A DNA stretch of 64,000 bases from contig JAHDID010000001.1 in NCBI GenBank assembly GCA_020630975.1, positions 79,687-143,686 on the forward strand. The letters run 5' to 3'. The position numbers and the translations under genes were made by a program. The DNA comes from Verrucomicrobiota bacterium (GTDB lineage: Bacteria > Verrucomicrobiota > Verrucomicrobiia > Verrucomicrobiales > DEV007). Shown in pieces: positions 10,264 to 14,023 of the stretch (its first letter is position 1; each line of letters opens with the position of its first letter). Under the pieces are notes generated by a model that was given only the letters and a program-made list of their open reading frames with translations, was not told the DNA's origin and did not search any database.

Positions 10264-10575
10264 TTACTGCCCCACCGCATCCACCCACTTCTCCCGACAC
10301 TCTGCTATCGCTTCGAGCATTTCTTCCGCCTCAATACGCTGCTCGGCATTGAGACTACTGACGGCTTGGTTGTAGCGGCGATAGAGGCCGGCTAGGTGGG
10401 ATTTGATCTCTGCCTTGTCCATGGCCTCAGGATTTTCCAGTCCGCAGATCTGCTCTGGGCTGATTTGAATCTTTGCCTTTTTCTCCTGTATTCTGGTTTC
10501 AATAGGTCCTACAGGCCGAACCGCTGGGGCGGAGATATCTTTCTTCCTAAAAATCTTTCCGATCTTCTTTATCAT
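10264..10575 (-). CDS. Small helical protein encoded with the Hsp70 gene
   Basis: A 103-residue protein (ATG at 10575) encoded 28 bp after the Hsp70-like gene, almost certainly in the same transcript. It starts with a basic stretch (MIKKIGKIFRKKD), followed by a proline-rich linker and a helical C-terminal half. That half, AEIKSHLAGLYRRY then EAEEMLEAIAECREKW, resembles helices II and III of a J domain in spacing, but the HPD loop reads NQA instead. I infer a possible degenerate J-like cofactor; it could equally be an unrelated helical hairpin. A TTG at 10590 is an alternative start. Confidence 0.5.
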   Translation of the reverse strand: MIKKIGKIFRKKDISAPAVRPVGPIETRIQEKKAKIQISPEQICGLENPEAMDKAEIKSHLAGLYRRYNQAVSSLNAEQRIEAEEMLEAIAECREKWVDAVGQ

Positions 10576-10603
10576 CTTAGAAAAACACAAAATAATCAGC
10601 CGC

Positions 10604-12100
10604 TTAGACGACCTTCACCTTTTTGAGATAAGCGGACTTCCTGACTAGCTCTTCCTCAGTCAGCACCCCTTTGCCCTTGTATTCGATCTCCACATCGTGG
10701 CGCAGACCAGTGTGGCTATCGTGGATCTCTGCGCGCACACGCTGGTTCTCATCGTAGCTGTAAGTAATCGTAACCTCACTGCCTGCAGGACGACTAGGTG
10801 GGACCTCGAGCTGAATCTTGCCGATGATGTTCACAAAACGTGGCTCCACATCCTCCCCTTGTGTGATCTCGACCTCGATTATCGACTCATCATCCTCTGA
10901 TGTCAGAAAAGTCTGAGACATGGCGCAGGGTATCGGCGTGTTTTTCGGGATCACGATCGAGTTTTGGACCTTTGCCTCGCCAGTTTTCGCATCTTCCACC
11001 AAAGCGAGGATCCCGTAGCTATGATTACAGACTTCATGAACCGTCAAAGACTGCTGGGCAAAGAGCGCCGCCCCCAATGCCACACACTCATCGACATTCG
11101 CACAAGCCAGAGGCGGCTTACCAAAGAATTTCTCTAGATTCTCACGGATCTTAGGAATTCGCGTGCTCCCCCCTACCAATAGCACCTCATCGATGTCCGA
11201 TGGACCGATCTCCAGACTATCCAGCGCCTGCTCCACCAGCATCGTCGTGCGAATCAATAAACGGCCAATCGCCGCCTCAAAACGCTCTCGCGTCAAAGTC
11301 ACCCGAGTTAGCCCATCTTTGTCTGTAGCAAATGTCTCGGTCACGACATTCAGCTTGGACAGCATCTTCTTAGTATCCTCGCAGAGAGACATCAGGCGCC
11401 CACTCTGATAGGGACTCATCTGTAGCTCACAGCCCTTCTGCTGGCGGTATTCCTCTCGGATCAACTCATTGACGACCTGATCAAAATCGCAACCACCCAA
11501 GTGACGCGCCCCTTCCGAAAGCTGAATATGGATATTGCGGCCTTGGATGAAAAGAATGGTGATGTCTAGCGTGCCACCACCCATATCAAAGACCATCACT
11601 CGACCATTCACCCCTTGAGTCAGAGCATAATAGAGAGCAGCAGCCGTAGGCTCATTCACGATACGAGTGACATTGAGACCTGCTAGCTTGCCCGCATCGA
11701 TCGTCGCACGCCTAGCTAGCTCATTGAAATTAGCAGGCACGGTGATGACCACATCCTCGATCTCTCCGATGAACTGAGAGCAGTCATTCTTCAGTTTGGA
11801 GAGGATCAGAGCCGAGATCTCTGTAGGTGTCCATTTGCGACCATCAAACTCGACTGAGTAATCAGGATCGCCCATGTGGCGCTTGATCTGGCCCACAGTT
11901 CTCTCCGGATCTCCGCCGTCGCGCGCCGACGAGCCGATGAGTTTCACATCCTCGAAAGGATCAAAAAATACAACAGAAGGCGTAAGCCTTTCGCCATCGC
12001 TATTGGGGACCACAGCTGGAGATCCGTCTGGCTGAACATAAGCCAGAGCGGATGTACTAGTGCCGAGGTCTATCCCTACGTGTTTTGCTGATGCAGCCAT
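10604..12100 (-). CDS. Hsp70/DnaK-family chaperone lacking the C-terminal lid
   Basis: A 498-residue Hsp70 homologue with a complete nucleotide-binding domain: GIDLGTSTSALAY (9-21), ITVPANFNELARRAT, IVNEPTAAALYYA, VFDMGGGTLDITIL and VLLVGGSTRIPKIRE. A substrate-binding beta domain follows (HSYGILALV..., GKIQLEVPPSRPAGSEV). It stops at about the end of the beta domain, some 140 residues short of DnaK, so the helical lid is missing. It lies between the FHA/GrpE-like gene (57 bp upstream) and a small helical protein gene, suggesting a specialised chaperone with a dedicated exchange factor rather than the housekeeping DnaK. Confidence 0.88.
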   Translation of the reverse strand: MAASAKHVGIDLGTSTSALAYVQPDGSPAVVPNSDGERLTPSVVFFDPFEDVKLIGSSARDGGDPERTVGQIKRHMGDPDYSVEFDGRKWTPTEISALILSKLKNDCSQFIGEIEDVVITVPANFNELARRATIDAGKLAGLNVTRIVNEPTAAALYYALTQGVNGRVMVFDMGGGTLDITILFIQGRNIHIQLSEGARHLGGCDFDQVVNELIREEYRQQKGCELQMSPYQSGRLMSLCEDTKKMLSKLNVVTETFATDKDGLTRVTLTRERFEAAIGRLLIRTTMLVEQALDSLEIGPSDIDEVLLVGGSTRIPKIRENLEKFFGKPPLACANVDECVALGAALFAQQSLTVHEVCNHSYGILALVEDAKTGEAKVQNSIVIPKNTPIPCAMSQTFLTSEDDESIIEVEITQGEDVEPRFVNIIGKIQLEVPPSRPAGSEVTITYSYDENQRVRAEIHDSHTGLRHDVEIEYKGKGVLTEEELVRKSAYLKKVKVV

Positions 12101-12157
12101 GAGTGGTGGTGAGATAAGCGGGGGCTCACCGACACTATGGCAAGTTTTCAGCTAGCC

Positions 12158-14023
12158 TCAAGCGACAACGACTTCGGCTTTGCGAAGAATCATCTTGTGA
12201 CCATTTCTACGATAGATGAAGCCAGGTCTGACGGTCTGCAGCACGACGCTGCGGTCACCCTCGATGCCTTTCGGGCGCTTCAGCTTCGTGTCGCCATACT
12301 CCTCAGCCGTGATCAACTGGATACGGCGGCGAGTATCGGCCGATAGTTCAGTGCCTGGATTGTACTCAAACAAATCGATCGAGTGATTCCTCAGCATGCT
12401 GATAAAGCTATCCTGCAAAATCTTGAGCTGCTCCGCCACACTCGGCATAAACCAGCGGTGCTCATACTGCTGGATGAGATCTTCGATCAACTCGACACGC
12501 TCGATCAGCTCCGAACAAAAATGATGCTCATCCTCCGAGAATGATGGTGCCGACAGATCCTCATCGCCCTCGTTGTAAATACCACGACGACTGAGCGCAG
12601 ACCGCTGAGCACGCAGCACAGACTTTTCGAGCTCTGTCTCGAGCATCTTCAGGTGATCGACCCTCCGCTCGGCCAGCTTGAGCCTATCTGTAGCAGAGGC
12701 CAGCTGATTGAGGACTGCTGCGTCCTCCTCCATCACGCGAGGGACGACCGCAGGCTCCTCCGGCGTTAGCACTGGCTCATCCGAGATGGTTCTCGCATCT
12801 TCTGCGAGCAGGCGCTTCTTACGACCGATTTTCTCGGTCTCAGACATCAGTTGATCTTTGCGCAGCTCGAGCTGTGCGATTTCGGTATGACAGGCGCTCA
12901 GCTTGCCATCCATCTCTGCGAGATCGACAGACTTACCTAGGATAGCCTGATTCAGAGCACGCAGCTCTTCGCAGTCTGCCTGCAATTCCTCTAAAGAATC
13001 CTCCAGACCAGAAATCGTGATGCGCTGCTGAGACACAGTGACATTGGAAGTCTTAAGATCTCTCTCGAGCTTCTCCTGCAGGCCTTTCTCACGGATCAGT
13101 CGCTGCTCATAATCCGCCTCCATGGAGGCGAGATCGCAGCGCTGTAGCTCTAGCTCGTTCTCCAACTCCCGTAGGCGCTGCTTAGCATGGGAAAGCTCCT
13201 CTGAGCTGATCTGCTGCTGGCTATCGGCCTGGCTGTGCTGACTTCGCACAGAATGAACAAATGCAGACAAACCCTCGCGAGTCGACTCCAGACGCGCCTT
13301 CAGTTCCTCGTTTAGCTGCTCGAACCGGTCACGATCGCCCTCGGCCTCAGCTAGAGCGGCCTTTAGGTTGCTGGACTCTATCGTCCGCACTTGGTCGGAC
13401 TCGGTCTTCAGGTCTGTTAGACGCTTTTTGTAGGCTGTCAGCTCGCTCTTCGATTCATTCGCCTCTGCTTTGGCAGAAATCAGCTGATCCGTGAGCTCAC
13501 TGCTCGCCTTCTGCTGATTCTCCAGCTCTGCCTCTAGCTCTGAGATAGTCTCTTTCGCCGTCTCCAGATCCCGCTTCACCGTTTGGACTGACTCTCGCTG
13601 ATTCTCGAGCTCACTGCGCATCGTGCTCAGAGTGTCCCTCTCGTTGCTGCGCTGCAGAGGTGGATCTTTTGGCACCCGAGGCGTTGTTTTTGGGTCCACT
13701 AGCTTGCGCACTCGCTCCTTAGCCACCGGCGTCGCATCTACGATGATGCATGGCAGTGTGCCAAATTTCACCTTATCACCTGCACTTAGAGCAATCTTTT
13801 CCGTGACCTTTGATCCATTCAGAAACGTTCCGTTATTGGAAGAGCGATCCTGCACGAGGATCTTATCCCCCTCTTGCACAAACTCCGCATGGTAAGCGGA
13901 CACGTAGGTCTCCCTGATGCGGATGTCGTTATCATGTCGCCGCCCTACGGTGACGCGTTCTTTATCGAGCATATACTCGAAAACTTCTCCCCGGTTGTTG
14001 ATAGGTATTTGCAGCTTTAGCAT
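12158..14023 (-). CDS. FHA domain / coiled-coil / GrpE-like protein
   Basis: A 621-residue, apparently cytoplasmic protein with three parts. Residues about 1-95 form an FHA domain that would bind phosphothreonine peptides (VTVGRRHDNDIRI, YVSAYHAEF, DRSSNNGTFLNG). Residues about 130-460 are a long heptad-rich coiled coil. From about residue 494 the C-terminus looks like GrpE, the Hsp70 nucleotide-exchange factor: two helices (VAEQLKILQDSFISMLRNHS), a Gly-containing turn, and a closing beta segment, VRPGFIYRRNGHKMILRKAE then VVVA. That closing block matches the usual GrpE end (GY-x-L-x-x-R-x-LRPA-x-V). The adjacent Hsp70 gene supports the GrpE reading, which is otherwise an inference from weak similarity. 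Confidence 0.7.
   Translation of the reverse strand: MLKLQIPINNRGEVFEYMLDKERVTVGRRHDNDIRIRETYVSAYHAEFVQEGDKILVQDRSSNNGTFLNGSKVTEKIALSAGDKVKFGTLPCIIVDATPVAKERVRKLVDPKTTPRVPKDPPLQRSNERDTLSTMRSELENQRESVQTVKRDLETAKETISELEAELENQQKASSELTDQLISAKAEANESKSELTAYKKRLTDLKTESDQVRTIESSNLKAALAEAEGDRDRFEQLNEELKARLESTREGLSAFVHSVRSQHSQADSQQQISSEELSHAKQRLRELENELELQRCDLASMEADYEQRLIREKGLQEKLERDLKTSNVTVSQQRITISGLEDSLEELQADCEELRALNQAILGKSVDLAEMDGKLSACHTEIAQLELRKDQLMSETEKIGRKKRLLAEDARTISDEPVLTPEEPAVVPRVMEEDAAVLNQLASATDRLKLAERRVDHLKMLETELEKSVLRAQRSALSRRGIYNEGDEDLSAPSFSEDEHHFCSELIERVELIEDLIQQYEHRWFMPSVAEQLKILQDSFISMLRNHSIDLFEYNPGTELSADTRRRIQLITAEEYGDTKLKRPKGIEGDRSVVLQTVRPGFIYRRNGHKMILRKAEVVVA

Follow-up and report, generated by a model that had tools for sequence, protein, structure and literature searches.

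Three genes lie head to tail on the minus strand of the window (the whole 64,000-nucleotide stretch of Verrucomicrobiota DNA analyzed here), in the order gene 1, gene 2, gene 3 (Table 1). The gaps between them are short, 57 bp from gene 1 to gene 2 and 28 bp from gene 2 to gene 3, the latter reduced to 13 bp if gene 3 begins at an alternative TTG (position 10590, giving a protein of 108 aa). The coordinates and both spacings agree on re-checking with those of a preliminary description of this DNA, and gene order and spacing make a single operon for the three genes plausible. Gene 3 is part of the cassette; neither its membership nor the existence of a second Hsp70/gene 3 copy elsewhere in the genome featured in that description. 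The locus is a conserved three-gene set, encoding a probable phospho-reader/exchange-factor fusion, a shortened Hsp70 and a small protein without a known family; the gene 1 and gene 2 products are soluble-looking.

Table 1. Features of the cassette (positions within the window) and contigs of a different GrpE-Hsp70 pair in relatives.
Feature	Position	Strand	Details
Gene 1: FHA-coiled coil-GrpE-like protein	12158..14023	-	621 aa
FHA domain, residues 24-88	13760..13954	-	PF00498 E 1.2e-16; Gly-Arg, Ser-x-x-His, Asn-Gly signature
Coiled-coil stalk, about residues 125-480	12584..13651	-	heptad periodicity z 4.3; matches to coiled-coil families only
GrpE-like domain, residues 496-621	12161..12538	-	profile evidence from relatives
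Gene 2: lidless Hsp70, 498 aa	10604..12100	-	PF00012 E 1.9e-103, profile 2-506 of 599
Gene 3: small conserved helical protein	10264..10575	-	103 aa from ATG; downstream of lidless Hsp70 in 42/44 loci
Different GrpE-Hsp70 pair, contigs	G034:C18, G052:C881, G038:C259, G050:C190		
Different GrpE-Hsp70 pair, further contigs	G059:C46, G094:C1, G073:C183, G078:C12		

The FHA-coiled coil-GrpE-like fusion

The N-terminal region of gene 1, originally described as an intact FHA domain, is indeed a canonical one. Over 39 aligned rows the signature columns, which serve phosphothreonine binding in FHA domains, are kept at 100% (Gly), 94% (Arg), 97% (Ser), 100% (His), 87% (Asn) and 100% (Gly), and all of these residues are present in the window copy; judged on its sequence, the domain has both the profile match and the phosphothreonine-binding residues of an FHA module. 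FHA is found in the same frame in 38 of 43 distinct GrpE-like ORFs (one duplicate locus having been dropped), and the genome itself contains 16 Pkinase-family matches, all over cut-off. A second Pfam family, PF16697 (an FHA-like cytoplasmic region from a protein of a secretion system), also matches gene 1 (E 3.4e-12), and phospho-binding is not known for this group of FHA-like domains. The match would suit a plain protein-protein module that neither senses phosphorylation nor takes part in signaling, a reading that we hold to be highly improbable and against which stand the better score of PF00498 (1.2e-16) and the retention of the phospho-binding residues. The coiled coil that follows displays hydrophobic periodicity at 3.5 residues, its z score being derived from 300 shuffles.

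That this protein is an FHA-coiled coil-GrpE fusion was borne out by the sequence profiles of relatives, which identify its GrpE end. The family was built from 95 related genomes searched with gene 1 and gene 2, from which the regions were fetched and 32 C-terminal domains aligned (alignment A1); for 27 of these 32, PF01025 is the sole Pfam family matched at E<=0.01 (best 1.8e-9). Taken alone, the window copy is sub-threshold (PF01025 E 0.12, 12.5 bits for the isolated C-terminal segment; no Pfam match as a 151-aa member in the member-by-member search), and its GrpE identity is therefore established through its relatives. When the genomes were searched with PF01025, the curated cut-off was exceeded by several of the fusions (e.g., 47.1, 37.0, 35.4 and 34.1 bits), and a hand-typed consensus of the domain reached 42.8 bits (E 5.6e-11). 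Comparison of the 32-member family with 13 canonical GrpEs using hhalign gave a probability of 96.1 and E 2.8e-9 across 128 columns at 13% identity; no control did better than E 0.066 (ten column shuffles, 0.066-0.78; reversed profile, 0.14). When A1 was compared with PDB sequences, E. coli GrpE (1dkg) came first (E 7e-4), followed in second place by the unrelated titin (0.012), with GrpE 4ani sixth (0.12). On the strength of these profiles, we regard the C-terminal domain as a divergent but real GrpE homologue.

It is the sequence profiles that settle this homology, the predicted fold being too poor to decide: a single-sequence model of the domain reached a pLDDT of 49, Foldseek with this model gave no match at E<=0.001 (rank 2, at E 2.4, was E. 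coli GrpE), and the top three rows from VIA, all GrpE, were tied with unrelated rows (Z 4.7 with 91 aligned at 5.9 Å; 4.7 with 87 at 6.5 Å; 4.5 with 88 at 4.6 Å). The genome also encodes a separate canonical GrpE (one match at E<=0.001), hence the housekeeping role in nucleotide exchange does not fall to the FHA fusion. Two GrpE-like paralogues are present elsewhere in the same genome, one of 390 aa (L041, G000:C122:95327-95797) that matches nothing in Pfam at E<=0.01 and so shows no sign of an FHA domain, and the other of 458 aa (L042, G000:C64:12625-13995) with an FHA domain; a Pkinase match (C64:18229-19020) lies about 4 kb from the latter.

The lidless Hsp70 and the gene 3 protein

The PF00012 match of gene 2 covers residues 8-484, spanning the ATPase and beta substrate-binding domains, and its termination at profile position 506 of 599 means that the helical lid is absent, as the preliminary description had proposed. 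All 36 listed gene 2 orthologues terminate soon after one common motif, and across the same set the Hsp70 ATPase motifs are strongly conserved; the best solved relative is DnaK 2v7y (E 3.8e-87). A plasmid search with the Hsp70 produced 104 records, every one under 60% identity, hence no mobile copy was seen among plasmids. The genome carries a second lidless Hsp70 (L043, G000:C99:42683-44434; 66% identical) accompanied by a second gene 3, with no FHA-GrpE gene beside it. Of the matches to gene 3 itself in the genome, two are strong, one behind each lidless Hsp70, and a third is weak (E 0.47).

These features bear on what the GrpE-like end might do. Were it a docking module only, without nucleotide exchange, an Hsp70 held on a long scaffold would be an ATP-controlled clamp or structural part and not a folding chaperone. 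Such a role would be in keeping with the scaffold-like spacer between FHA and GrpE-like domains (52 to 1875 residues among relatives), with the distance of the GrpE-like domain from canonical GrpE (the 13% identity over 128 columns given above) and with loss of the Hsp70 lid. We nonetheless consider it somewhat unlikely: the strong conservation of the ATPase motifs in the 36 orthologues argues against it, as does the finding that conservation of the GrpE-like domain is highest at positions of its C-terminal beta part, the region through which GrpE touches Hsp70 in solved complexes.

Gene 3 proteins (alignment A3, 23 sequences) comprise a variable start and linker followed by a conserved helical domain, which is modeled as a helical hairpin (pLDDT 69). 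The Pfam matches of the 23 members and of a typed consensus include no known family for gene 3, other matches being weak and scattered (FliS 0.0098, flagellin 0.34). Assignment as a J-domain was tried and failed its sequence controls: PF00226 is absent from the Pfam matches of the 23 members and of the typed consensus, the His-Pro-Asp motif is absent from the alignment, hhalign gave E 0.035 against 9 J-domains (with 0.0017 for the best-scoring of 50 shuffles) and E 0.018 against 22 (2 of 100 shuffles scoring higher), the global alignment in the 22-member test fell below the six best shuffles, and with HMMER shuffled gene 3 sequences outscored the real ones. Structural comparison placed the Tid1 J-domain at Foldseek rank 1 (E 0.56, probability 0.84, non-significant), with J-domains at ranks 1, 4, 6 and 18 among the 50 matches listed, none significant; by VIA, J-domains scored Z 6.1-6.8, level with unrelated helical proteins, the highest of which reached 7.3. 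J-domain identity is thus only a lead.

A lid supplied in trans was likewise not supported, hhalign of alignment A3 against the lids of three Hsp70s from the same genome giving E 0.21, 0.25 and 0.0031, the last covering 17 columns with one of eight shuffles reaching 0.014. Among 11 gene 3 protein starts, 7 gave a hydrophobic moment reached by <=5% of shuffles, which is weak evidence for an amphipathic segment because the starts were chosen by hand. A complete phospho-addressed Hsp70 machine with a new layout, in which an FHA-anchored exchange factor and the lidless Hsp70 would be joined by gene 3 as both a degenerate J-like co-chaperone and, via a short amphipathic start, a membrane tether, strikes us as decidedly unlikely.

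Conservation of the cassette among relatives

The association between these genes, whose recurrence in other genomes the preliminary description had set as a test, does recur. Of 47 Hsp70 loci scored, 44 remained after removal of a canonical DnaK and two repeats (L095, identical to L058, and L002, taken to be L077 because the two contigs have the same length); they correspond to 43 of the 52 close gene 2 matches listed, together with L003. In 32 of the 44, the gene immediately upstream of the lidless Hsp70 is GrpE-like, with a same-frame FHA in 29; among the other three, L048 and L100 begin at a contig end, and L052 (G013) has its FHA further upstream in a different frame. The 12 loci lacking an upstream GrpE-like gene are varied in nature: L097 and L108 are cut by a contig end; L075 and L076 (two genomes of genus g6) have an upstream FHA-coiled-coil gene without the GrpE end, a natural loss, and these genomes contain no GrpE-like match at E<=1e-8 anywhere; L003, L077, L078, L088, L089, L092 and L093 have no such gene visible upstream of Hsp70; and L043, the second copy in the window's own genome, is preceded by an ammonium transporter gene. 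The two loci in which gene 3 is not seen behind the Hsp70 reach a contig end (83 and 210 bp left). Match coordinates also place Hsp70 and GrpE-like genes side by side in six genomes in regions outside the 44 loci (G001, G006, G008, G019, G027 and G029).

At the level of whole genomes, a strict GrpE-like cut-off (1e-34, chosen after seeing the match list, with genomes counted by hand) divides the 95 genomes into 43 with both genes, 8 with Hsp70 only, 8 with the GrpE-like gene only and 36 with neither (one-sided Fisher 5e-11, a value that ignores shared ancestry); for the 69 more complete genomes the corresponding counts are 35/4/5/25. Co-occurrence weakens at a loose cut-off (any match at 1e-8), to 44/7/21/23 (P 6e-5, likewise ignoring shared ancestry). 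Both genes are missing from every one of the 11 genus g19 genomes (2.3-3.2 Mb). The range search took in this phylum and plasmids; in a 288-genome sample of the phylum (with 261 unlisted negatives of unstated kinship), the Hsp70 was matched in 7 genomes at E<=1e-120 and the GrpE-like domain in 7 at E<=1e-6, and every matching genome belongs to the same taxonomic order as the window.

The distribution invites an alternative in which the core unit is Hsp70 plus gene 3, the FHA-GrpE protein being a frequent but dispensable neighbor with a role of its own (e.g., serving other Hsp70s). Gene 3 follows the Hsp70 in 42/44 loci as against 32/44 with a GrpE-like gene before it, the 8 of 95 genomes with a GrpE-like gene and no Hsp70 at the strict cut-off point the same way, and the window's own genome has its two further GrpE-like paralogues, one without FHA. 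Against this, G060, G075 and G081, which are missing the upstream neighbor, keep an FHA-coiled coil-GrpE gene elsewhere in the genome, so its function may be kept unlinked, and on balance we think the alternative unlikely. Single genomes depart from the pairing in both directions: G087, G090 and G093 have Hsp70 and gene 3 with no GrpE-like match in the genome, and G094 has the fusion with no lidless Hsp70.

Proposed mechanism and relation to known Hsp70 systems

The three domains, the missing lid and the conserved linkage are established at the level of sequence, and from them we infer phospho-binding, docking, exchange and targeting. Our preferred reading, whose prospects we rate as even, is that the cassette forms a dedicated, spatially targeted Hsp70 machine, with a phosphothreonine-recruited exchange factor cycling the lidless Hsp70 at a fixed site. 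A Hanks-type kinase of the cell would lay down the phosphothreonine mark, to which the FHA domain would bind. GrpE normally has a long paired stalk ahead of the part that opens Hsp70; the gene 1 coiled coil, very variable in length, would prolong this stalk, with FHA capping its far end. The GrpE-like end would then dock on the ATPase domain of the neighboring lidless Hsp70 and drive ADP release. Absence of the lid should make client binding weak and release fast, so that the Hsp70 would have to be brought to its client, a task that may fall to the phospho-anchored exchange factor; the gene 3 protein would be an obligatory partner of the lidless Hsp70.

Accessory pairs of a DnaK-like and a GrpE-like protein are known, as in SglK/GrpS of Myxococcus, with which the cassette shares this arrangement and for which no FHA fusion is known. 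In common with DnaK-GrpE-DnaJ, the cassette has an Hsp70 ATPase with a beta substrate domain and, encoded in one cluster with it, an exchange factor of the GrpE type; it differs in that its Hsp70 is lidless, its GrpE is fused to FHA via a long coiled coil, and it has no recognizable J-protein. GrpE-Hsp70 gene clusters have also been reported next to GAP1-N2 GTPase systems, with mention of an Hsp70 without a peptide-binding domain (PMC7159879); these resemble the cassette in having an Hsp70 and a GrpE of their own, apart from the housekeeping operon, whereas the FHA-GrpE fusion found here is not described in the accessible part of that report. The literature searched, mostly without subscription papers such that absence is not proof, held no description of an FHA-GrpE fusion together with a lidless Hsp70 and a third gene. 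The parts are already known; it is the fusion, lidless partner and third gene as one conserved unit that did not turn up in that literature. If correct, the proposed mechanism would couple the Hsp70 cycle directly and physically to threonine phosphorylation in bacteria, through a phospho-reader fused to an exchange factor. It would also offer a naturally occurring Hsp70 that has an exchange factor of its own and no lid, and thereby a way to study the purpose of the lid.

A different GrpE-Hsp70 neighbor pair is present in eight relatives, where the Hsp70s are full-length (open frames of 590-705 aa).
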